Assembly (NCBI GenBank): GCA_021295965.1
Contig: JAGWBI010000013.1
Span: forward strand, 1-38,359
Length of the DNA stretch: 38,359 nt
From: Dehalococcoidia bacterium
Lineage (GTDB): Bacteria; Chloroflexota; Dehalococcoidia; Lucifugimonadales; UBA3495
Reading direction: 5' to 3'
The notes under the pieces were generated by a model that saw only the letters and a program-made list of their open reading frames with translations, was not told the DNA's origin and made no database searches. Of the stretch, positions 1-23,630 are shown piece by piece. The stretch's first letter is position 1. The number at the start of each line of letters is the position of its first letter. The position numbers and the translations under genes are program-made.

Positions 1-850
1 TCCCCACCAGCGCGACGCTGACGGCGGGGTTCGACAGCACCCAGCGCAACGCCAGGTGGGGCATATTCTTGCCTCTTGCTTCGGCGATGGGTTTCAAGTC
101 TTCGACGACCCGCAGGTTGCGTTGGAAATGCTCCTCGGCGAATACGCCCACGTTCCAGCCGGGCCGGCCGCCGGTGCTGCGCCAGTCGTTGCCGCCGAAG
201 GTGGTATCCGCGGACATCGTGCCGGTCAGCAGCCCAAAGGCCAACGGCCCATAGACCATCACGCCGGCGCCCTGCTCCACGCAGTAGGGAAAGATTTCTT
301 GCTCCATGCGCCGGTCGAACATATTGAGGCCATACTGCACGACGTCCACGCTGCGGACCGCCTCACATTCCTTGATCTGCTCCAGGGTGAAGTTGGAGAC
401 GCCGACGGCTCGCACCTTGCCCTGGTGTACCAGCCCATCCAGCGCGTGCATGGTCTCGTCGAAGGGGGTATTGACGTCGGGCCAGTGGATGAGCAGCACG
501 TCCAGGTAGTCGGTGCCAAGGTTTTGCAGGCTCTGCTCCACGGAGGCGAGGATAGACAACGCCCGGCTGTCGCGGCCCTTGGGCCGGTCGGCGTAACCCA
601 CGCCGCACTTGGTGACGACGACAACGTCCTTGCGCCGGCTGCCCAGGGCCTTGCCCAGCACCACCTCCGACTTGCCTCTGCCGTAGGCCGGCGCGGTGTC
701 GAAACAATTGATGCCCAGATCGATGGCCCGGTTCACGGCGGCATCCAGCTCGGAACCGGACACGTCACCATAGGTGCCGCCCATCTCCCAGCACCCGAAG
801 CCGAGCGCCGAAACCGTCATGTCAGTGGGTCCGAAACGTCGGTATTCCAT
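1..850 (-). CDS. Aldo/keto reductase, 3' end outside the window
   Basis: NAD(P)H-dependent aldo/keto reductase of the (beta/alpha)8 barrel superfamily, reducing aldehydes or ketones in the cytoplasm; the substrate cannot be read from the sequence. About 283 residues are visible and the frame runs off the left edge. The N-terminus reads MEYRRFGPTDMTVSALGFGC. The expected catalytic tetrad is present: D51 and Y56 (FDTAPAYGRGKSE), K81 (VVTKCG) and H122 (LLIHWPD). The SNF motif of the barrel follows (VGVSNFTLEQIKE). The ATG at 848-850 has GGAG at 860-863 nine bases upstream. That ribosome binding site lies inside a short remnant of an amidase C-terminus, which is the odd feature here. The gene reads in the same direction as the amidase to its right. 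I am sure of the family and unsure of the physiological substrate. Confidence 0.93.
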   Translation of the reverse strand, partial: MEYRRFGPTDMTVSALGFGCWEMGGTYGDVSGSELDAAVNRAIDLGINCFDTAPAYGRGKSEVVLGKALGSRRKDVVVVTKCGVGYADRPKGRDSRALSILASVEQSLQNLGTDYLDVLLIHWPDVNTPFDETMHALDGLVHQGKVRAVGVSNFTLEQIKECEAVRSVDVVQYGLNMFDRRMEQEIFPYCVEQGAGVMVYGPLAFGLLTGTMSADTTFGGNDWRSTGGRPGWNVGVFAEEHFQRNLRVVEDLKPIAEARGKNMPHLALRWVLSNPAVSVALVG

Positions 851-856
851 AGCGCC

Positions 857-895
857 TCACTCCAAATTGGGCCACACGCCCCGGCTGGGGAAGTA
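857..895 (-). pseudogene. Remnant of an amidase C-terminus
   Basis: On the minus strand this stretch encodes FPSRGVWPNLE followed by TGA. The intact amidase at 1408-2832 ends in SPSRGVWPNLE followed by TAA, so 10 of 11 residues and the stop position agree, with synonymous differences between them. No further amidase sequence is visible upstream. The remnant ends six bases before the ATG of the aldo/keto reductase, and its GGAG serves as that gene's ribosome binding site. Together with the intact copy it brackets the small membrane-protein gene at 930-1364. Confidence 0.7.
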
Positions 896-929
896 GATTG
901 GGTAGGTGACCGAACCGGGTTCGCCTCGG

Positions 930-1364
930 TTAACTTCCCGGCGGGGGGTCATTGAATTCGCGCCCTTCGGCAGCCGCCCTCATGCGCGCCTCGTTCCACT
1001 GCTGCCACCGCTCGCGTTCCGCGGCGGCGCCCGCGGCGGCCCCCGCAGCTTTTATCTCTTCCAGCTCCCGCCGTCGCTTCTCCCTATCCTTGCCGATTAA
1101 TGACAAAGTGTAAAACACTCTGAAGCCTCCTTCCGCCAGCACCGCTATTATGCCGTAAGAAATGGCGCCCAAGCCTGCCATCTCTGCGGCCATGTCCCAG
1201 TGGTCCCAAAATCGCGGCTGGCTCGTCCAGAACCACGTCATGAGTGCGGCGCCGAATGGCGAGGCCGCAAAATGCCTGACTTGCCACCCTTCCGGCTGTA
1301 TTAGCCAATCCCAGAGGTGGCGAGGTATTGACTTGATCCCGTCGCGAGTGCCGCGCCACACCAT
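930..1364 (-). CDS. Small hypothetical membrane-associated protein
   Basis: I do not recognise the family. The 144-residue product begins MVWRGTRDGIKSIPRHLWDW. It has a tryptophan-rich N-terminal third (WDWLIQPEGW, WFWTSQPRFWDHWD), one hydrophobic segment at about residues 59-80 (MAGLGAISYGIIAVLAEGGF), and a charged, alanine-rich, probably coiled-coil stretch at about 92-125 (DREKRRRELEEIKAAGAAAG). The C-terminus is polar. A single-pass inner-membrane protein with a cytoplasmic coiled coil is plausible. No clear ribosome binding site precedes the ATG. It lies between the intact amidase and a copy of the amidase tail, which suggests it was inserted there. The coding frame is open throughout and its codon positions look like the neighbours', but no function can be given. 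Confidence 0.6.
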   Translation of the reverse strand: MVWRGTRDGIKSIPRHLWDWLIQPEGWQVRHFAASPFGAALMTWFWTSQPRFWDHWDMAAEMAGLGAISYGIIAVLAEGGFRVFYTLSLIGKDREKRRRELEEIKAAGAAAGAAAERERWQQWNEARMRAAAEGREFNDPPPGS

Positions 1365-1407
1365 GACTTGATTTTACCATGCTGATTTTGCCGGCCCATT
1401 GACGACG

Positions 1408-2832
1408 TTACTCCAGGTTGGGCCACACCCCCCGGCTGGGCGACACGCCCTCGTAGGCGTGGGCGATCCGGAACAGGTTGCCCTCCTCCCACGGCCGGGC
1501 GATAAACTGGAGGCCGATGGGCAGGCCGAGCTCGCTGAAGCCGCAGGGCACGGTGATGGCCGGGAAGCCGGTGGAGTTCATCGGGCTGGTGTTGCGGGAG
1601 ACGTGACCGGAGCCGGGGCCGCGCACCTTCTGGCGACGCCCTTCCGCCTCCAGGGTGTCCGCGTCGATGCGCGGGGCCGGCAGCGGCGTGGTCGGCGTCA
1701 CCAGGAAGTCCACCTCCTGCAAAACGCGGGCGTGCTCCTCCTTGATGAGACGCTGCACCTTCATGGCTTTGGAGTAGTCCCGGCCCAGCACGAACTGGCC
1801 GGCCAGCGTGCGATACAGCGTGTCCGGGCCGTAGTCCTCGCGGTTGGAGGTGATGTAGGGCTCGTGGGTGACCACGCTGTCGGCCATGCTGGAGAAGCGC
1901 AACGCGCCGGCGTACTGCATGGTGGGCACGCTGACCTCGCGGGTGACGACGCCCAGCTCTTCCAGGGCGGCGATGGCCGCGCGCACGGCGGCCTCCACCT
2001 CGGGATCCAGGTGGTCGTAGTAGTAGTTGGACGGTATGCCCATGGTGAGGCCGCTGATGCCGCGCTCCAGGATGAGAGCGTAGTCGTCCACCGGAACCGG
2101 CACGGTGCTGGGATCCAGCGGGTCGTAGCCGGCGATGGCCTGCAGCACCAGCGCGCTGTCCCGCACGGAGCGGGTCATGGGGCCGATGTGGTCGCCGTTG
2201 AAGCTGGTCACCAGCAGCCCGCGTTGGCTGACGCGCCCGAAGGTCTGCTTCAGGCCCACCACGCCGCAGAACGCGCCGGGCAGCCGTACCGAGCCGCCCA
2301 GGTCGGTGCCCAGGGAGGCGAAAGTCACGCCGGCGGCCACGTTGGCCCCGCCGCCGCCGCTGGAACCGCCGGGGATGTGGTCCACGTTCCAGGGGTTGTG
2401 CACCGCCCCGTAGTGAGGGTTGTTGGAGGTTGCGCCGGCGGCGAACTCCTCCAGGTTCTCCTTGCCGAGGATAATCGCGCCGGCTTCCTTGCAGCGTCGG
2501 ACGACTTCAGCATCCTCGTCGGGCACGTGGTCTCGCAGCACCTTGGTGCCCAGGGTGGTGTTGATGCCGCCGGTGGCGATGTTGTCCTTGATGCCGATGG
2601 GGATGCCGTGGAGCGGCCCCCGGTACTCCCCGCGAGACAGGGCGTCCTCGGCTTCCTCGGCCTGGGCCAGGGCTTGCTCCCGCATGATCGTGATGAATGA
2701 GTTGAGCGTTGGCTGCTGCCTTTCAGCCTCAGCCAGCGCCGCCTCCGTGAGGTCAACGGGAGAGACCTCCCGCGCCTGGATCATGGGAGCGACTTCGGAA
2801 ATGGTCAGCTTGAGCAGTTCGGAGCTAGGCAT
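1408..2832 (-). CDS. Amidase, amidase-signature family (GatA/AtzE-like)
   Basis: Amidase-signature hydrolase cleaving a carboxamide C-N bond; 474 residues, normal for the family. Numbered from MPSSELLKL, the Ser-cisSer-Lys triad is K82 (GIPIGIKDN), S157 (PGGSSGGGG) and S181 (TDLGGSVRLPG), with the usual 24-residue spacing between the serines. I chose the ATG at 2830-2832 over the one at 2848-2850 because GGAGGAGGAG lies just upstream of it. This start overlaps the end of the small GatC/AtzG-like gene by eight bases, so the two are translationally coupled. No gatB lies nearby, so a role in the tRNA amidotransferase is not supported. A stand-alone amidase with a small stabilising partner, as in AtzE-AtzG, fits better. 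The stop-proximal sequence is echoed at 857-895. Confidence 0.93.
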   Translation of the reverse strand: MPSSELLKLTISEVAPMIQAREVSPVDLTEAALAEAERQQPTLNSFITIMREQALAQAEEAEDALSRGEYRGPLHGIPIGIKDNIATGGINTTLGTKVLRDHVPDEDAEVVRRCKEAGAIILGKENLEEFAAGATSNNPHYGAVHNPWNVDHIPGGSSGGGGANVAAGVTFASLGTDLGGSVRLPGAFCGVVGLKQTFGRVSQRGLLVTSFNGDHIGPMTRSVRDSALVLQAIAGYDPLDPSTVPVPVDDYALILERGISGLTMGIPSNYYYDHLDPEVEAAVRAAIAALEELGVVTREVSVPTMQYAGALRFSSMADSVVTHEPYITSNREDYGPDTLYRTLAGQFVLGRDYSKAMKVQRLIKEEHARVLQEVDFLVTPTTPLPAPRIDADTLEAEGRRQKVRGPGSGHVSRNTSPMNSTGFPAITVPCGFSELGLPIGLQFIARPWEEGNLFRIAHAYEGVSPSRGVWPNLE

Positions 2833-3028
2833 CGGCTTCTCCTCCTCCATCCGCCGGCCGGAGCAGGCGCGCGGACATCACGTCGGACAGGTCGAGATCA
2901 CGCAGGTTCTGCAACTCGGTCAAGTAGTTCTCCAGCTCCGGCTTGACCAGCTCCAGCTCAGCGTCGGACAGCTCGAACCCGCCGTATTCGGCAATAATGC
3001 GCTTCATGGTTTCGTCGGAAATCGGCAT
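2825..3028 (-). CDS. Small GatC/AtzG-like amidase partner
   Basis: A 67-residue acidic helical protein, MPISDETMKRIIAEYGGFEL..., ending GGGEADA. Its size, helical character and position directly before an amidase match the GatC-like/AtzG-like (DUF4089-type) small subunits that bind and stabilise AtzE-type amidases. This is inferred mostly from context and general resemblance. The ATG at 3026-3028 is chosen over the GTG at 3035-3037 because GGGAGGTG sits eight bases before it. The 3' end overlaps the amidase start by eight bases in an ATGCCTAG junction, a strong sign of coexpression. Confidence 0.7.
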   Translation of the reverse strand: MPISDETMKRIIAEYGGFELSDAELELVKPELENYLTELQNLRDLDLSDVMSARLLRPADGGGEADA

Positions 3029-3136
3029 TCGCCACACCTCCCGGTACGGTAGAGGTTACGTACGTTACGCGGGAGTGTACACGCCGAGCGCGGGGGATGC
3101 CAACCCGCAGACTGCGAGCATCGGAGCAGGGTACGG

Positions 3137-3625
3137 CTATTCTTGTAGCGCGTCGACCAGGCGGGATCCACAGCGGACCAATTGGATGGCCACGGACTGT
3201 CCTCGGAAGTTAATCCGGCTTGAAGGCCTCCGGAGATTCGTGATCTCATCGCGATGCAAACCGCGGTCATGCGCTGCGACGGGGTAGAACCTGACCGGTG
3301 CGCCGGGTGGTACGAGTTCATTCGCGATGACAGCACCACCACGTAATTGCGCCAGAAACTCACTGGCCCTTTTCCTGCCAGTGGTCAATTCAACAGGGAC
3401 AACCCATGAACCCGAATTTGCGTCGTTGCCGCCGATAAACAGGTAATCGCAGCGTTGACGGTCACGTACGATTTGCGCCGCCGCGTCGTCTTCCAGATGG
3501 ATTAATACCGAGGGCTGGGGTGTTCCTTCCAGTAGAAGGGTGCAACCACTATCGCTACACCTGGTTACTTGGCAGCGCGGGTCGGTTCGGGTCCGCACTG
3601 CCTCCACTGCCGACGCCGGCGTCAT
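3137..3625 (-). CDS. Small companion of AAA ATPase, PD-(D/E)XK nuclease-like signature
   Basis: 162-residue protein encoded immediately after an AAA ATPase, with a 4-base ATGA overlap. It contains CDYLFIGG (D60) followed by SWVVPVELTTGRKR (E79, with T81 at the lysine position) and then FLAQLRGGAVIANEL. This order resembles small PD-(D/E)XK-like proteins in which a CDF/CDY strand is followed by a P-x-E-L-K strand and an EQLQxGA helix. The expected catalytic lysine is replaced by threonine, although K84 lies three residues further on. The C-terminal half contains FYPVAAHDRGLHRDEI and INFRGQSVAIQLVRCGS. It could be a nuclease with a migrated lysine, an inactive nuclease-fold partner, or something else. 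The coupling to the ATPase is certain; the fold assignment is inference. Confidence 0.6.
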   Translation of the reverse strand: MTPASAVEAVRTRTDPRCQVTRCSDSGCTLLLEGTPQPSVLIHLEDDAAAQIVRDRQRCDYLFIGGNDANSGSWVVPVELTTGRKRASEFLAQLRGGAVIANELVPPGAPVRFYPVAAHDRGLHRDEITNLRRPSSRINFRGQSVAIQLVRCGSRLVDALQE

Positions 3626-5172
3626 TCGCCCCGCTCGATACGGTTGGTAATGAGTGCCCAGCGGTTGTAGAGAGCTTCTGATACCAACCCGAACTTGGAC
3701 GGGAATGTGCCCGTTTCCTCTTCAAGAGGAATTTCCCGAACCATAGATCCTCCCTCTTTCCCGTTCGGCTCGAATAACCATGCGCCTACTTCGTCCGGGC
3801 TAAGGGCCAGATCAGCCCCCTCAATTCCTTCGCGACGCTCCGGGGGAAGTTCCGACAACTTGACCAGGTTCGCTAACTCCTCCAGCACCCATTCGCTGTG
3901 GGTGGTGATGATGATGCGGATATCGGCTTTCACCGCTGCGGCGAGCAGGCGCGTGAATTCGACCTGTGCCTCTGGGTGGAGGTGAGACTCTGGCTCTTCG
4001 ATGATGAGGGTATCGCCTGGTTGGACCACATGGCGGAAGTAGAGAACAACGGGGGCTAATTCCGCGACCATCGATGAGGCGTTCATCAAGGGCAGATCAC
4101 GCTGCCAGTCATTTGGTCTGTACAAAAACGAAGGAAACCCTACAGGGTTGTTTTCGATGCGGATTGTGCCTTTCAGCACGTCCTTTTCGATGCGATACGC
4201 GATCAACGAATCCGTCTCCTGCGGCATGTTTGCGCTGCCAATGCTAATCAGTCGATCGAGAAAGTCGCCAATTACGCCAGTAAAAATCCTCATTGGCGAT
4301 TCATTCGGGCCGGATGAACCAGACCCACTGAGTATCAATATACGCACCAGATTTTGAAGCGAGTGCATGACAGTAGCACGATCGGCCGGAAGGTAATGCG
4401 TATAGAGACCGAGAGGACCTACGCTGCGGGAGAGCACGATGCCGCTGAGAGCAGCCAACTGCAAATTGGCGCTAAAGAGCCGTAGGTCCTCGGTGTCTTC
4501 TGGTGACAGAAAAAACGAACGTGATTGGAGGCGCTGCATGATGCTGACTGGTACAGCGGTCGGTTTTAACATCTCGACACGGGTTCCGTCGCTTGAAAAC
4601 TCGATTTCGTACTGGAAAGTATCTCCGTAATCGGACATATGTACCACAGCACAACGCATTGGAGATCCTGAGATGCCCCCTTTCGGATAATGAACTATGC
4701 CAGAAGCCTCATCAGTCCCAAAGCATCTTATTATGGCCTCTTCCAAAACCTCTCTCGAGCGACCTATTCCATCTAGAACTTTGCCAACCAAGTCAGCGAC
4801 TACCTTCTGCAGTTCTGAAGGAGGCGACACAGACGCAGACTGGCTGGTTAGTTCTGTTCTGAATCGTTCCATGCTGACCCATCGATAAAGGTCATCGACT
4901 TCCGACACGGACAACGCGACGTTGGTGAGGTACCTCAGGTTAGTTGGCCGGTGGAAAGAGGTCTGACCGGGTCTCCTTGAAGTGACAACCGGTCCAGAAA
5001 AGGAACCGAAAAATTGATTCAGCGCATAGATCAGGACGGCCAAATACGACTTGCCCGTGTTGCTCGGCCCTACGAAAACCGTCATCGGCCGCAGCTCGAC
5101 CGTGCCCTCGGCGATGGGGCCGAAGTTGGTGACCTCCAGTTTGAGGTGCTTGGTTTCGGGTGCAGCAGGCAT
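3622..5172 (-). CDS. AAA family ATPase, SMC/OLD-like (AAA_21 type)
   Basis: 516-residue ATPase of the ABC/SMC-like group found in OLD-family and related defence proteins. The N-terminus LKLEVTNFGPIAEGTVELRP is the typical first strand and is followed by Walker A GPSNTGKS (35-42). Around 261-266 is LPADRA, and an ABC-signature-like region NASSMVAELAPV lies at 364-375. Walker B is LIIEEPESHLHP (389-400), and the sensor/H-loop is IITTHSEWVLEEL with H425. The middle 100-350 is helical and poorly conserved, as in this group. No nuclease domain is fused to it; the coupled downstream gene at 3137-3625 may supply that role. No convincing ribosome binding site precedes the ATG. A two-gene anti-phage cassette is plausible but unproven; a housekeeping DNA-repair role is the alternative. 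Confidence 0.85.
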   Translation of the reverse strand: MPAAPETKHLKLEVTNFGPIAEGTVELRPMTVFVGPSNTGKSYLAVLIYALNQFFGSFSGPVVTSRRPGQTSFHRPTNLRYLTNVALSVSEVDDLYRWVSMERFRTELTSQSASVSPPSELQKVVADLVGKVLDGIGRSREVLEEAIIRCFGTDEASGIVHYPKGGISGSPMRCAVVHMSDYGDTFQYEIEFSSDGTRVEMLKPTAVPVSIMQRLQSRSFFLSPEDTEDLRLFSANLQLAALSGIVLSRSVGPLGLYTHYLPADRATVMHSLQNLVRILILSGSGSSGPNESPMRIFTGVIGDFLDRLISIGSANMPQETDSLIAYRIEKDVLKGTIRIENNPVGFPSFLYRPNDWQRDLPLMNASSMVAELAPVVLYFRHVVQPGDTLIIEEPESHLHPEAQVEFTRLLAAAVKADIRIIITTHSEWVLEELANLVKLSELPPERREGIEGADLALSPDEVGAWLFEPNGKEGGSMVREIPLEEETGTFPSKFGLVSEALYNRWALITNRIERGE

Positions 5173-15780: not shown

Positions 15781-16200
15781 ATGATCGAGAAAAAAGGGCG
15801 TCATCCCGTGGAAGTTATCGCCGAAGTTCAGTCCATGGAACTGGACCTGAACCACGATGGCTCATACAAACTGCTGCTGAAAGACGGCGCCACGTTACGG
15901 GCCGACTTCACCGCCTCCCAGTGGGGTTCTTTGGAGGGTATGCACAACCACGGCCGGTACGATATCAAAATAGTCGGCCAAGGCGACTACGCTGACGGAC
16001 GGTTGAATCGGATAGTCAGCATCGACCTGACCAAAACGCATAGGGTGGTTCCGCCGGAAGACCCGGAGGAGCCTACGCTGCTGCACAGGCTTGCCGAGAT
16101 TCGAAAAAAATACCCGCCGGATGATTGGGACGATATTCCCACCGACCTGGCCAAAAATATGCACCATTATCTTTACGGCCGGCCGAAGGTGGATGAATGA
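15781..16200 (+). CDS. Hypothetical protein coupled to a PIN-domain gene
   Basis: 139 residues, not recognised. The first half is beta-rich (VIAEVQSMELDLNHDGSYKL, then LKDGATLRADFTASQWGSLE) and may form a small barrel. The second half is helical and charged (TLLHRLAEIRKKYPPDDWDD, then PTDLAKNMHHYLYGRPKVDE). The stop overlaps the start of the PIN-domain gene by four bases (ATGA). In toxin-antitoxin pairs of the VapBC type the upstream coupled gene is the antitoxin, and the C-terminal tail DDIPTDLAKNMHHYLYG resembles the toxin-binding tails of some antitoxins. The beta-rich N-terminus is not one of the usual DNA-binding folds. Antitoxin is therefore an inference from position only. Confidence 0.6.
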   Translation: MIEKKGRHPVEVIAEVQSMELDLNHDGSYKLLLKDGATLRADFTASQWGSLEGMHNHGRYDIKIVGQGDYADGRLNRIVSIDLTKTHRVVPPEDPEEPTLLHRLAEIRKKYPPDDWDDIPTDLAKNMHHYLYGRPKVDE

Positions 16201-16607
16201 TGCGAGCGGTCTTTGCGGACGCCTGCTATTGGATTGCGTTACTTCTGGAACGCGATGTCTTCCATGAGATGGCAACGCTGTTGTCCATTGAAATGAGATA
16301 TCGACAGATTGTAACGACGCAAATGGTACTGGCGGAAACCCTGAACGCCGTCGGGCGATTTGGCGCGATGAATAGACGGTATGCCGTGGAATTGGTCCAC
16401 GACCTCACGACTGGTTCTCGCGTGGACGTGATAGACCAGACTCCCGAACAATTCTGGAACGCCGTAAATTACTACAATGCCCGCCCTGACCAGGAATGGG
16501 GACTCGTCGATTGCGCCAGTTTCCTGATTATGGATAACCAGGGTATTAGAGAGGCGCTTACCAACGACCACCACTTTGAGCAGGCCGGTTTCACCATCCT
16601 CATGTGA
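16197..16607 (+). CDS. PIN-domain protein, VapC-like ribonuclease
   Basis: 136-residue PIN-domain nuclease. The acidic metal-binding residues fall in the expected places: D8 (RAVFADACYWIALL), E47 (MVLAETLNAVGRFG), D105 (WGLVDCASFLIMDN) and D124 (LTNDHHFEQAGF). Such proteins cleave RNA as the toxin of VapBC-type modules. It begins in a 4-base overlap with the preceding gene, supporting a two-gene module. The final residues AGFTILM are typical of the last PIN strand. The module lies between the biotin carrier and uvrA, with only 12 bases to uvrA, so it may be read through into uvrA. Confidence 0.88.
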   Translation: MMRAVFADACYWIALLLERDVFHEMATLLSIEMRYRQIVTTQMVLAETLNAVGRFGAMNRRYAVELVHDLTTGSRVDVIDQTPEQFWNAVNYYNARPDQEWGLVDCASFLIMDNQGIREALTNDHHFEQAGFTILM

Positions 16608-16619
16608 GAAAGCTCTTTT

Positions 16620-19655
<3,036 letters not shown>

Positions 19656-20792
19656 ATGGAGCCGCCCGGTAGGCAAGTGAACGCCATGCCCGACGCAAAG
19701 CCGCTGGACCAGTCCCTGCATCTCCCCAGCCTGGTCATCAAGAACTTCCGCGGCATCGACGAACTGACGATACCGCGCCTGGGTCGGGTGACGCTGCTGG
19801 CCGGCAAAAACGGCGTGGGCAAGACGACGGTGCTGGACGCGGTGCGTGTGTGGGCTGACCGTGGCCTCAACAGCGTCCATGACCTAGTGCTACACGACCG
19901 GGGCGACTCATTCACCACAATCGGTAGCGATACTGAAAAAAAGGCCATCGTTGATCGCAAAGCCTTGTTCAAAAAACGTCTCATTTCGTCTGGGGAGGCT
20001 ATATCAATCGGCCCGACCGACGATTCCAATACACTCCAGATCCGGGCACTTCTACCGCAAGCTTGGCCATTTAGTCAGAACTCTCCGTCTGATTGGCAAA
20101 TTTCCTCACCGATGGATGTATTAGGCAATATCCGGCTTGAAACGCATTTTGGGAATTTGGAGCCACGGATTGAAGGCATACCGTTCGTGTTCGACGATGG
20201 AGCGAACGCGATAGGTTGTAACTTAATGGGCCCCAACGGCCCGACCGATGAGGTCGTTGAACAACATTGGAGCGAAGTGGCGCTGACCTCGCACGAGGAC
20301 AAGGCCCTCGAAGCATTGAATTTGATCACTGACCAAGAAGTTGAACGAGTTGCAGCATTGGGGCCACCGGTAGCCAGCAGTGGAATAACCCAACCACGAC
20401 GGATGATGGCGAAAGTGACTGGTGTTGACTACCAAGTTCCGTTACGTACCCTCGGCGATGGCGCGTTGCGTACCTATGCCGTCGCCCTCGCTCTCGCCAA
20501 AAGCAGCGGTGGCTTCCTCCTGATCGACGAAGCCGAAAACGGCATTCACCATTCCATCCAGGCCAAGTTCTGGAAGATGGTGTTGCAGACCGCCCAGCGC
20601 AACAACGTGCAAGTGCTGGCTACCACTCACAGCTGGGATTGTGTAAAAGGGTTCGCGCAAGCCGCCAACGAGTTGGAGGATGTGGAGGGGATGCTTTACC
20701 GTATTCAGCGCAACACTGAACGACTGCGCGCGGTGCCCTACCCGGAAGACCAACTTCTCATTGCTGCTAAACACGGCATAGAAGTCCGCTAA
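19656..20792 (+). CDS. AAA family ATPase (AAA_15/21 type), partner of a TOPRIM-like protein
   Basis: 378-residue SMC/OLD-like ATPase. The first strand SLVIKNFRGIDELTIPRLGR leads to Walker A GKNGVGKT (50-57). The ABC-like signature is LGDGALRTYAVALAL (266-280), Walker B is FLLIDEAENGIHHS (287-300), and TTHSWDCVKGF (323-333) carries the H-loop. The ATG at 19656 directly follows the uvrA stop. A second ATG at 19686 (MPDAKPLDQ) would still leave the whole domain, and neither has a strong ribosome binding site. The middle (85-260) is less GC-rich than uvrA and poorly conserved, hinting at separate origin. The next gene starts three bases later and encodes a TOPRIM-like protein, so the pair looks like a split OLD/PARIS-like system. 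Confidence 0.87.
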   Translation: MEPPGRQVNAMPDAKPLDQSLHLPSLVIKNFRGIDELTIPRLGRVTLLAGKNGVGKTTVLDAVRVWADRGLNSVHDLVLHDRGDSFTTIGSDTEKKAIVDRKALFKKRLISSGEAISIGPTDDSNTLQIRALLPQAWPFSQNSPSDWQISSPMDVLGNIRLETHFGNLEPRIEGIPFVFDDGANAIGCNLMGPNGPTDEVVEQHWSEVALTSHEDKALEALNLITDQEVERVAALGPPVASSGITQPRRMMAKVTGVDYQVPLRTLGDGALRTYAVALALAKSSGGFLLIDEAENGIHHSIQAKFWKMVLQTAQRNNVQVLATTHSWDCVKGFAQAANELEDVEGMLYRIQRNTERLRAVPYPEDQLLIAAKHGIEVR

Positions 20793-20795
20793 TCC

Positions 20796-21443
20796 GTGAC
20801 CACAGTAGGACCGACCTCATCACCCGGTTGGCTCGTTGTGGAGGGTCAGAATGATCTGCACCTCGTAACGCATTTGTGCAGGCGTTCCGACCCTGGCCTT
20901 GGCTCGGCGTTCGCATTCCATGACGCCCAAGGCGTTAACGGTGTGCTGGATAGGGTGCGCGCTTACATTAACCAGCCAGACGTCTCCGCCGTCGGTTTCG
21001 TTGTGGACGCTGATGCCGACCCGGTCAACCGTTGGCGAGAAGTCGCGGACCGGATAACCGCTGCCAACAGCGACATTCAGTTGCCAACGGCACCCGACCC
21101 GGACGGCACCGTCATCCCCGAAAACCCCGCCATCGGCAGCCCCCGCATCGGCATCTGGATCATGCCCGACAATTCTGCTACCGGCGAACTGGAAGACTTT
21201 GTCGCGCAGATGATTCCCGGCGGTGATCCGGTTTGGCCTTTATCCCAAGACTACATCGACGGTATCCCGCCCGAAGCCCGCAAATTTGACGATGACTCAA
21301 TCACCAAGAATCAAGTCCATGCTTGGCTGGCGGCAAGAAGGTTCCCGGGCCTCGTGGGTCTAGCCATCCGCGAAGGAGACCTCAGCGTCAACAACCCCCT
21401 CTCCCAGCGTTTCCTAACCTGGCTCTCCCGCCTTTTCCGCTGA
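20796..21443 (+). CDS. TOPRIM-like protein, DUF3226 type
   Basis: 215 residues from a GTG start at 20796. The TOPRIM landmarks are a glutamate after the first strand (GWLVVEGQNDLHLV, E16) and an acidic cluster after a later strand (AVGFVVDADADPVNRW, D71, D73 and D75). A further segment IGIWIMPDNSATGELEDFVA is typical of DUF3226-type proteins. The C-terminus is helical. TOPRIM domains of this kind act as metal-dependent nucleases in OLD, Gabija and PARIS-like systems, driven by an AAA ATPase. Here the ATPase is encoded by the gene three bases upstream. Family naming rests on motif pattern from memory. A nuclease role is inferred; primase- or RecR-like TOPRIM use is the alternative. Confidence 0.78.
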   Translation: MTTVGPTSSPGWLVVEGQNDLHLVTHLCRRSDPGLGSAFAFHDAQGVNGVLDRVRAYINQPDVSAVGFVVDADADPVNRWREVADRITAANSDIQLPTAPDPDGTVIPENPAIGSPRIGIWIMPDNSATGELEDFVAQMIPGGDPVWPLSQDYIDGIPPEARKFDDDSITKNQVHAWLAARRFPGLVGLAIREGDLSVNNPLSQRFLTWLSRLFR

Positions 21444-21460: not shown

Positions 21461-21484
21461 GCTCATGGTGAGCCTGTCGAACCA
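21461..21484. repeat. Dispersed repeat forming the 3' end of the MFS gene
   Basis: GCTCATGGTGAGCCTG with flanking TCGAACCA. Another copy lies at 29672-29695 and an inverted, diverged relative at 29714-29739. In the minus-strand reading it encodes the last residues (GSTGSP) and the TGA stop of the transporter gene, so the repeat became part of the coding sequence. Confidence 0.65.
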
Positions 21485-22800
21485 CCCGCGTCGCTCTCAA
21501 TCCCCATCCCGCCCCCGGCCGCCTTCCGGCCCGGCCGCGTCGCCGTAAGCATCAGCAGCGATACTACCGCCAGGTTGACGCCGAAGGCCAGGAACGCCCC
21601 TTCGTAGCTGCCCACCCGGTCCACCGCCAGGCCGGCCGCCAACGGCCCCAGCGCCTGTCCGCCCACCTGCGCCGCCAGGCCCCATGACCTGATCACGCCC
21701 AGGTGCAGCCGTCCGAAGTAGTCAGCCCAGGTGAGGCGGGCGATCATGTGCAGGCCGCCCACGCCGAACCCCAGGAAGAACGCCCCCAGCACTCCCACCG
21801 CGATGCCGCTGGCGAAGGCCGTCGTTATCGCGCCGGCGGCCACCACCAGTCCCGACGCCGGCATCATCAGTCGCGCCGCGAAACGCTGCGACAATGCCGA
21901 CCAGAAGATGCTCGCCGGCACCTGCGATATGGCGAAGGTGCTGGCCGTCCAGACCGCGACCGACGGCGGCACCCCCTGGTCAACGAAGTGCGGCACCTGG
22001 TGGAGGGACACCCCCGCCTGCACGATGAACCCGGCGAAGGCGAACAGCATCATCAACCAGAAGGCGCGGGTTCGTATCGCCTGGCGCTGGGTGAAGTTGA
22101 TCTCGTCAGCGACGTTCTGGGGCCGCCGCCCGGAGCCCGTTCTCCGTCCCGCCGGCGTGTTCCCGGCGCCGCCGTCGGGTTCCAGCCCCAGGTCTTCCGG
22201 GCGTCGCGCCATCAGCAGCATCGCCGGCACGACGCCCACCGCGATGGTCCAGATGCCCAGGGCGTACCACGCCGTTTCCCAGTTCCAGGCCCCGATGATG
22301 GCCTGAGACACCAGCGGCATTATCGCCAGTCCCGAACCCTGGGAGACGTGGTTGAGGGCCAGCGCAAAGGGCCGGCGACGAATGAACCAGTTGCTCACCG
22401 CCACCGACGTCCCCAACTCCAGCGGGCTGGCGAACGTCGCCCGTCCCGGCACGTACACCAAATAAAACAGCCAGATCTGGTTAACCGCGCCCAACGCCAC
22501 CGCGCACAGCCCGGCAATGCCCGACGATATGCCCACCACCATGCCCGAGCCGTAACGGTCCAGTACCGGCCCCACCAGCGGCGCGGCCACTACCGCCAGC
22601 ACTCCGCCCAGGCTCACCGCGCCGGCAACTTGCGCCCGCGTCCAGCCGAACTGCTCCGACATGGGCACCACGAACACCGTCAGCACCGCCACCGACATCA
22701 GGGGTCGCGACGAACACGACGCAATCGCGGACAGGCCGAGGATCACCCATCCATAGTAGAAGGGAGTGGCCCGCGCCGTGCGGGTTTGCAACCCGCGCAT
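21463..22800 (-). CDS. MFS transporter, oxalate/formate antiporter-like
   Basis: 445-residue major facilitator with about 12 hydrophobic segments in two halves. The N-terminal PFYYGWVILGLSAIASCSSR is the pattern of the monocarboxylate/oxalate-formate antiporter-like branch. The loop between helices 2 and 3 reads GPVLDRYGSGMVVG, and that after helix 4 reads PGRATFASPLELGTSVAVSN. A cytoplasmic loop at about 207-237 (LEPDGGAGNTPAGRRTGSGR) splits the halves. Substrate unknown; organic acids are typical of this branch. The last six residues and the stop codon come from a dispersed repeat. It converges on the AAA/TOPRIM pair, whose stop lies 19 bases away. Confidence 0.9.
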   Translation of the reverse strand: MRGLQTRTARATPFYYGWVILGLSAIASCSSRPLMSVAVLTVFVVPMSEQFGWTRAQVAGAVSLGGVLAVVAAPLVGPVLDRYGSGMVVGISSGIAGLCAVALGAVNQIWLFYLVYVPGRATFASPLELGTSVAVSNWFIRRRPFALALNHVSQGSGLAIMPLVSQAIIGAWNWETAWYALGIWTIAVGVVPAMLLMARRPEDLGLEPDGGAGNTPAGRRTGSGRRPQNVADEINFTQRQAIRTRAFWLMMLFAFAGFIVQAGVSLHQVPHFVDQGVPPSVAVWTASTFAISQVPASIFWSALSQRFAARLMMPASGLVVAAGAITTAFASGIAVGVLGAFFLGFGVGGLHMIARLTWADYFGRLHLGVIRSWGLAAQVGGQALGPLAAGLAVDRVGSYEGAFLAFGVNLAVVSLLMLTATRPGRKAAGGGMGIESDAGGSTGSP

Positions 22801-23016
22801 CAGACGGCTTGACGCTGATGAGGTGGAATGGCCTCCTCAAAGCGGCGGCGGTATGAGATAGATAGGCGGTTCACAGGATCGCGTCGGATTGGCCGACGTC
22901 TCTGAACCCCGACCGGAATGCCCGGCGATTATAGCAGAGGGAATTCGGCTAATCTTTTGGTACGATAAGGCTCACGTAGGTCATCCATGATGCCCACAAT
23001 TTGAGAAAACTTCCCC

Positions 23017-23448
23017 ATGAAACGTTTACCTGGTGCGCGGTACTGGCACATTCCTCTCTTGTATCTAGTCGCTACCCTGATGTTGGCGGCCATCTTCGCC
23101 TTGCATGATCAGCCCGATTTCTTGGGCCCGTACTTGCTTTTGTTGGGAGAGCTTCTAGCCGGCATTCTCGTACTCCGTTTTAATGAGAAAGGCAAAAAAA
23201 TTCCTCATCTTGCGGTGGTCTCTGTCGCCCTTTGTGGAACATTTGTCGTCTTGGTAAGTATGTCAGTATGTTCTCCAGCTGATCTGCCAGCGGGTGAGTC
23301 GTGCTCTATTTCTCGGTATTGGTCCGCTTTTCGTATGCTAATGGTCAATTTTTTCGTGGCGTTGTTCTTGACCGCTATGTTTATACCTACCCACTGTCTT
23401 GTGGTAAGTCTCTGGCGTAATCGTCATAGAATGGGAGCGGCAAAATAA
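23017..23448 (+). CDS. Small hypothetical membrane protein
   Basis: 143 residues with four predicted transmembrane helices: IPLLYLVATLMLAAIFAL (12-29), FLGPYLLLLGELLAGILVL (35-53), LAVVSVALCGTFVVLVSMSV (65-84) and MLMVNFFVALFLTAMFIPTH (107-126). Both termini are positively charged, suggesting they face the cytoplasm. Codon use is visibly less GC-rich than in the neighbours, with many T-ending codons, so recent acquisition is possible. I do not recognise the family. The GAGAAAA before the ATG is a weak ribosome binding site. Confidence 0.65.
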   Translation: MKRLPGARYWHIPLLYLVATLMLAAIFALHDQPDFLGPYLLLLGELLAGILVLRFNEKGKKIPHLAVVSVALCGTFVVLVSMSVCSPADLPAGESCSISRYWSAFRMLMVNFFVALFLTAMFIPTHCLVVSLWRNRHRMGAAK

Positions 23449-23484
23449 CTCCCTGTAATGGAACCAACCCAACCCAATATCCGG

Positions 23485-23630
23485 CCTGCGTTATAGTACC
23501 CCAATGCAGCGCATTCTCCGGCTGGCCCCTGGCCCGGTTTGACCCCCCGTCGGCAACACCGCTCGCATCATCAAGCAGATTGACGAGGCGCAAGCTGCCC
23601 ACGCCGACCTGGTGGCATTCTCCGAGTTGA
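23485..23630 (+). pseudogene. Decayed copy of the nadE 5' end and promoter
   Basis: This stretch matches the region around the nadE start at 24406-24565. It contains CCTGCGTTATAGTACCCCAA then ATG CAG CGC ATT CTC CGG CTG GCC, against CCTGCGTTATAATACCCCAA then ATG CAA CGC ATC CTC CGG CTG GCC. A one-base insertion after LRLA shifts the frame to TGA, and about a dozen bases are missing near the codons for VGDIP. Similarity then resumes (CGCTCGCATCATC, CAGATTGACGAGGCGC, CACGCCGACCTGGT) and fades at the 3' end of the Uma2 gene. The copy and the intact nadE start bracket that Uma2 gene. Confidence 0.85.

Follow-up and report, generated by a model that had tools for sequence, protein, structure and literature searches.

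A candidate split OLD-like anti-phage unit of the PDC-M38 kind, with a hypervariable ATPase, in Dehalococcoidia

What is the role of two adjoining genes that encode an OLD-like ATPase and a small TOPRIM protein, and that sit between uvrA and a transporter gene in a Dehalococcoidia bacterium? ATPase–TOPRIM systems of the OLD type, including Old, Gabija, PARIS and retron effectors, are widespread. The pair lies at positions 19,656 to 21,443 of a contig of 38,359 nucleotides (JAGWBI010000013.1, assembly GCA_021295965.1), hereafter the window. An earlier note had read it as a defence cassette of a split OLD/PARIS-like type. We propose an anti-phage role for the pair, as a split, OLD-like unit of two proteins of the kind listed as PDC-M38 in PADLOC-DB, a candidate assignment to which we give a probability of about 0.7. 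The ATPase would most likely be a fast-changing infection sensor that controls a TOPRIM nuclease.

The DUF3226 protein and its ATPase partner

The second protein of the pair, of 215 residues, belongs to DUF3226 (Pfam PF11536, E 2.2e-48), as the earlier note had suggested, and its only other Pfam match at E up to 10 was a weak GlgE domain. The same note had made its reading depend on a TOPRIM fold in this product. The AlphaFold model is confident (mean predicted local distance difference test score, pLDDT, 95.2) and its structure matches OLD TOPRIM domains. We aligned 59 sequences, comprising the window and 58 of the 63 named loci described below; L050, L077, L079, L080 and L090 were omitted as short, broken or containing unknown residues. 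Of the three acidic residues singled out at first, E16 and D71 are invariant and D73 is mostly kept (Table 1). Model and alignment support a TOPRIM fold that carries the acidic metal-binding residues of OLD, and make an OLD-type nuclease a well-supported prediction. D20, D125, E133, K171 and the motif GIWIMPDN had gone unmentioned, and most of them are better conserved than D73. K171 sits in helix 166–179 of the model and is a candidate counterpart of the catalytic lysine K562 of Bp OLD; the equivalence of catalytic residues other than E16, D20, D71 and D73 was judged by order and topology rather than by superposition.

Among DUF3226 proteins, one PF20469 match lay over the cut-off and two below. 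Kinship with RloB was rejected, as the profile alignment reached a probability of 0.3, not above two controls, in a comparison of small sets (23 fused OLD, 8 standalone, 5 DUF4435 and 9 RloB sequences). Weak matches to folylpolyglutamate synthase in the PDB were regarded as chance. PH0156 of Pyrococcus horikoshii (PDB 2p62), a hypothetical protein that we place among the nearest known counterparts, gave no sequence match at E up to 10 with a single protein or a profile. In two cyanobacterial metagenome-assembled genomes (MAGs), the DUF3226 gene lies in pieces beside an ATPase gene of normal length (L077, 9807–10453; L079, 10001–10642).

The ATPase matches AAA_21 (74.2 bits, 2.5e-20) and AAA_15 (65.6 bits) in Pfam, and PDC-M38A (4.5e-72), AbiLi (1.4e-39) and AriA (4.1e-23) in PADLOC-DB. 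Residues G50, N52, G55, K56, G267, G269, D291 and E292 are invariant in 60 aligned ATPases (the window and 59 of the 63 loci, omitting L050, L064, L080 and L084), so that the Walker A, signature-like and Walker B motifs of this SMC/OLD-like ATPase are intact, as first described. These numbers refer to the open reading frame (ORF) of 378 residues. Translation probably starts at the ATG at 19686 (residue 11), giving 368 residues, since all 12 aligned sequences of the genus have a methionine at that point; residue 11 is also where the alignment starts in 8 of 11 pairwise comparisons with other genus members. The coordinates, the protein lengths and the three-base gap between the genes, as first reported, are correct. 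The ATPase gene does neighbour uvrA, but its likely start lies further downstream than the base that follows the uvrA stop. Of the 60 aligned ATPases, 37 end in exactly IEVR and 59 in R, and this conserved tail is perhaps a docking tail.

Known relatives, linkage and genomic setting

By its profile matches, the pair is a genuine member of PDC-M38. In PADLOC-DB 2.0.0, the ATPase matches PDC-M38A (PDLC04611) and the DUF3226 protein PDC-M38B (PDLC04624, E 1.1e-35), and the genes are adjacent here, adjacency as PADLOC's rule being an assumption. It is thus not a new candidate system, as PDC-M38 was already in PADLOC-DB 2023. PDCs are described as putative candidates from guilt by embedding, most of those discussed in that account awaiting experimental validation (PMC12988326). 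In the literature covered, full-text searches found no publication on DUF3226 or naming PDC-M38, and PDC-M38 was also absent from the papers listed by a broader search.

OLD classes 1–3 hold ATPase and TOPRIM in one polypeptide, whereas here two ORFs are separated by a stop, which sets the pair apart from classes 1 and 2 (P2 Old, Ts OLD, Gabija GajA). The GajB helicase neighbour of Gabija is also lacking, the next gene being an MFS transporter on the opposite strand. The ATPase resembles AbiL, matching AbiLi to its C-terminus (best stretch 212–340 of 340), while none of the three matches that the DUF3226 protein has in PADLOC (E up to 10) is to a family named AbiLii, the presence of such a model being unchecked. 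PARIS (AriA/AriB, class 4 OLD) is alike in having an AAA_15/AAA_21 ATPase gene adjoining a TOPRIM gene. The published PARIS rule, as given in PMC9122126, combines such an ATPase over a threshold with a DUF4435 partner. The ATPase here passes the threshold, but the partner is DUF3226 without a DUF4435 match (Pfam, E up to 10), and its fold is closer to OLD TOPRIM than to AriB. PARIS membership is therefore excluded by the published rule, and of the split OLD/PARIS-like label the OLD-like ATPase with a separate TOPRIM protein stands. A PARIS-like mechanism, in which the TOPRIM protein is caged by the ATPase, released by a phage protein and then active on host tRNA as a free, tRNA-cutting dimer, would share the purpose of defence with the unit that we propose and differ in effector chemistry; we consider it rather unlikely.

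With the DUF3226 protein as the only query, a search of one genome per GTDB species gave the 63 named loci, and an ATPase gene lies directly upstream at all 63 (at L064 and L084 as a contig-end fragment). The gene linkage for which the earlier note had proposed a survey thus holds across Acidobacteria, Gemmatimonadetes, Armatimonadetes, Chloroflexi, Cyanobacteria, Bacteroidetes, Planctomycetes, Proteobacteria and others. In the GTDB family, the ATPase adjoins DUF3226 at 28 of 28 places, window included. The two proteins co-diverge across phyla, with a correlation of partner distances of 0.92 over 57 loci that none of 2000 permutations reached. DUF3226 is present in 20 of 50 family genomes (genus included) and in 28 of 400 phylum-sample genomes. 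Separate OLD-like_TOPRIM ORFs of 226–328 residues occur in L173, L176, L177, L179–L181, L183 and L185, in genomes without a listed DUF3226 match, and are possibly other split systems.

Within the genus, 7 of 14 genomes (G000, G008, G009, G011, G013, G015 and G017) carry the window-type pair flanked by uvrA and the MFS gene. Five others (G006, G010, G012, G014 and G016) carry it at a second common site, whose flanks share ~82–88% identity over kilobases. G018 carries a distant pair type only. A second pair occurs in 6 of the 14, its DUF3226 protein ~24–28% identical to that of the window. In G007, uvrA and the MFS gene meet tail to tail at an empty site, which looks like a loss because G017, the window and the tight clade defined below all have the pair next to uvrA. 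The second site is unusable as an empty site in uvrA-site genomes, its flanks being on different contigs or far apart. This second site (L122–L126 flanks) adjoins DNA homologous to window positions 3–3057, at the window's left end; in L122, it lies ~1.9 kb beyond the edge.

These sites bear on the alternative raised at first, that the pair is a DNA-repair accessory acting with UvrA. The position directly downstream of uvrA in half of the genus, and the fact that UvrA and the pair's ATPase are both ABC ATPases, would suit such a role. Yet G007 keeps the uvrA–MFS junction without the pair, four genomes with uvrA keep the pair at the second site (a fifth, G010, also has it there, and a full uvrA was not found in that genome), and uvrA is in reach at L049 only of the 63 loci (flanks up to 10 kb). 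With the uvrA link confined to part of one genus, we rejected this extremely improbable alternative on its patchy association. The near-universal presence of the pair in the genus could also speak for a housekeeping role, for which the archaeal OLD protein Cran1 offers a precedent in the cell cycle (PMC12796447). The absence of a match in 372 of the 400 phylum-sample genomes, the natural absence in G007 and the rapid allele replacement described below make that role very improbable.

In two cases, a related pair is embedded in an operon of a known defence system. In a Gemmatimonadetes MAG (L031), the order is brxA, brxC, the pair, a TIR-like gene, an unmatched ORF, pglX and Dsr2; in a Dehalococcoidia MAG (L037), it is hmaA, an ORF with weak pAgo matches, an OLD-like gene, the pair, PDC-S19, hmaB and hmaC. 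These BREX and Hma embeddings emerged from a closer look at ten large neighbours of eight loci and then at those two loci. We also scanned neighbours at 17 loci of the phylum (115 of 129 selected proteins, PADLOC at E up to 1e-10), dropping L200 and L202 as syntenic repeats of L199, and L201, where no DUF3226 ORF was called. The control was 15 random regions of the same genomes, several of them short (115 of 135 selected ORFs, 153 called). The neighbours matched 81 scattered PADLOC families and the control 36, family counts differing from protein counts as several models may match one protein. Among the listed neighbour matches, SIR2-type families occur in two members, and PDC-S19, PDC-S58, DrmD, HmaA, ShosA and others in one each; one neighbour has a DprA-type Pfam match, and another (L190:9045–9686) is itself a PDC-M38A fragment. 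The listed control matches include restriction-modification genes, and mad3 in five members. A second neighbour set (111 of 156 selected proteins from 28 named loci), without a matched control, contains mad3 in six, PDC-S03 in up to five and AriA in up to three among the matches listed.

Probable allele exchange around a hypervariable block

We compared the pair and its flanks in codon windows across the 10 genome pairs of a tight clade (G008, G009, G011, G013 and G015). Identity is 96–98% in uvrA and 83–92% in the MFS gene, and drops to 60–69% in the ATPase and 55–69% in DUF3226. The median proportion of silent differences (pS) is 0.24–0.41 in uvrA and 0.27–0.45 in the MFS gene. In the ATPase, it is 0.25–0.38 in codons 1–66, 0.68–0.82 in codons 67–220 and 0.45–0.72 in codons 221–374, and in DUF3226 it is 0.58–0.79. 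Silent divergence is thus uvrA-like in ATPase codons 1–66, and from codon 67 onwards, through the whole of the nuclease gene, it is about twice that of the flanking genes; the proportion of replacement differences (pN) has its maximum of 0.65 in codons 133–154. Misalignment in the hypervariable block may inflate pS, and lower GC content there may add to it; in the well-aligned codons 287–308, pN is 0.042 and pS is 0.54, still above uvrA. We read the silent-site jump as recombination with long-diverged alleles, because selection on protein sequence would not be expected to give such a jump within one gene. Mosaics agree with allele recombination between genomes: the G012 ATPase is 80% identical to that of G014, but its DUF3226 protein is 75% identical to that of G013 and 45% to that of G014, and G006 and G013, whose pairs stand at different sites, share 83% identity in the ATPase and 64% in the DUF3226 protein. 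As a reading of these comparisons, the new result here is an exchange of alleles whose breakpoint follows the Walker A block.

Two further genera also vary. In g83, L199 and L200 are 92–93% identical over ~10 kb, with pN of 0.16–0.61 in ATPase codons ~50–300 and at most 0.10 in DUF3226, and with pS already high in N-terminal windows (0.58, 0.36); L200 and L202 differ more mildly (pN up to 0.37 in the ATPase and up to 0.26 in DUF3226). In g82, where 4 of 7 loci were compared, L194 differs from L201, L196 and L197 with pN of 0.27–0.62 in ATPase codons ~50–175, in which L201 and L196 form one allele class (pN at most 0.10), and pN in DUF3226 reaches 0.47. A breakpoint after codon 66 is shown for the genus of the window only. 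A hypervariable ATPase middle with fixed catalytic parts in three genera points to one block of the ATPase.

The Nostoc pairs show no unusual variability, and the 1.9 kb unit alone is common to loci with unlike flanks (L067 and L075, pair 94% identical), so that it moves as a unit. The window protein matched eight plasmid records, four covering at least 80% of it, and the Citrobacter protein eight records that overlap this set; the Citrobacter pair as a DNA query had no match in E. coli. A mobile two-gene unit on plasmids, several of them 6–40 kb, would fit toxin-antitoxin-like plasmid addiction, with the ATPase neutralising a TOPRIM toxin and the unit kept because its loss is harmful, without phage-specific sensing. 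This account leaves a hypervariable block within the proposed antitoxin unexplained and has against it the intact junction without the pair in G007 and the two relatives inside BREX and Hma operons; we consider it improbable.

Defence is the best-supported function of the pair, because of the PDC-M38 match, the two relatives inside BREX and Hma operons and the hypervariability. In the split OLD-like unit that we propose, the ATPase head would assemble with the DUF3226 protein, docking perhaps through its conserved C-terminal tail, and keep it inactive. The hypervariable block (residues ~67–200) would recognise something made or changed by a phage, and trigger binding with ATP turnover would switch on the TOPRIM nuclease. 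The nuclease would then cleave nucleic acid by two-metal OLD chemistry, DNA being likelier than tRNA because the fold and active site resemble OLD more than AriB. Cleavage would stop the phage, probably along with the cell, and arms-race pressure on the sensor would drive allele exchange.

Several observations weigh against this proposal. The sensing role of the block is proposed from its variability only, and DUF3226 also varies, so that the ATPase may not be the sole partner under pressure. Partner distances correlate weakly in the genus (0.55 over 11 genomes, 0.36 without G017), and D73 is replaced by N in 12 of 59 DUF3226 sequences. Of the 14 genomes of the genus, 12 keep the window-type pair at one of two fixed sites, a more constant presence than that of many defence systems. 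In the 17-locus neighbour scan, defence proteins were not clearly more frequent than in random regions, and BrxC and HmaB occur in one member each of the 111 (as does BrxA), so that BREX/Hma embedding is not the rule. The earlier note's defence cassette remains the best reading, but the neighbour scans did not show a general enrichment in defence islands, for which the note had proposed a survey. Neither DUF3226 query (window, Citrobacter) had a relative in 50,697 phage records, and the literature searches found no experiment on any DUF3226 pair.

Features of the locus and meaning for OLD-type defence

GC content is ~0.67 in uvrA, drops to 0.54–0.61 across the pair and is back at 0.66–0.71 in the MFS gene (features in Table 1).

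Table 1. Features at and around the ATPase–DUF3226 pair (window positions)
Feature	Position	Strand	Evidence
uvrA	16620..19655	+	Left neighbour; Pfam UvrA_DNA-bind 1.1e-36, UvrA_inter 2.3e-34
OLD/AbiLi-like ABC ATPase ORF, 378 residues	19656..20792	+	AAA_21 2.5e-20; PDC-M38A 4.5e-72; model pLDDT 87.1
N-terminal conserved block, ATPase codons 1–66	19656..19853	+	pS 0.25–0.38 vs uvrA 0.24–0.41
Walker A GKNGVGKT, residues 50–57	19803..19826	+	G50, N52, G55, K56 in 60/60
Hypervariable block, codons 67–200, proposed trigger sensor	19854..20255	+	Median pN 0.49, pS 0.75 (10 pairs)
Degenerate ABC signature LGDG, residues 266–269	20451..20462	+	G267, G269 in 60/60
Walker B LLIDE, residues 288–292	20517..20531	+	D291, E292 in 60/60
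C-terminal tail IEVR, terminal R378	20778..20789	+	R378 column 60/60
DUF3226 TOPRIM protein, 215 residues, putative nuclease effector	20796..21443	+	PF11536 2.2e-48; PDC-M38B 1.1e-35; pLDDT 95.2
E16 and D20, first TOPRIM acidic motif	20841..20855	+	E16 59/59; D20 is 52 D, 7 E
D71-A-D73, TOPRIM DxD	21006..21014	+	D71 59/59; D73 is 45 D, 12 N, 2 E
GIWIMPDN motif including D125	21150..21173	+	Columns 119–126 invariant in 59 sequences
K171, candidate counterpart of Bp OLD catalytic lysine	21306..21308	+	57 K, 2 R of 59; equivalence inferred
MFS transporter	21463..22800	-	Right neighbour; MFS_1 5.1e-35; adjoins uvrA without the pair in G007

Elsewhere in the window, a second ATPase-led pair lies at 3137–5172 on the reverse strand. 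Its AAA_15 ATPase of 516 residues matches PD-T4-4_A (4.9e-35) and PDC-M47A (1.8e-28), and its gene overlaps by four bases an ORF of 162 residues for which no Pfam match (E 0.01) or PADLOC match (E 1e-4) was found. Before uvrA, two small overlapping ORFs on the forward strand (15781–16607) coincide with a dip in GC content and are likely a toxin-antitoxin pair, because the second encodes a PIN-domain protein (3.7e-8). At 22900–23600, GC content goes down to 0.48 (~23000–23500), and one small ORF is listed (23017–23448).

Beyond the single locus, we tentatively suggest, as a reading that may well prove wrong, that DUF3226 pairs form a distinct class of split OLD nucleases and a polymorphic innate-immune locus. 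The fixed Walker A block would anchor homologous exchange of the sensor block together with the nuclease, so that related species would keep the system and rotate its specificity, much like restriction specificity subunits. The candidate is uncharacterised, and the model of its putative nuclease is confident. Should the hypervariable block indeed be the sensor, its exchange among natural alleles would be a direct test of what sets specificity in this defence class.
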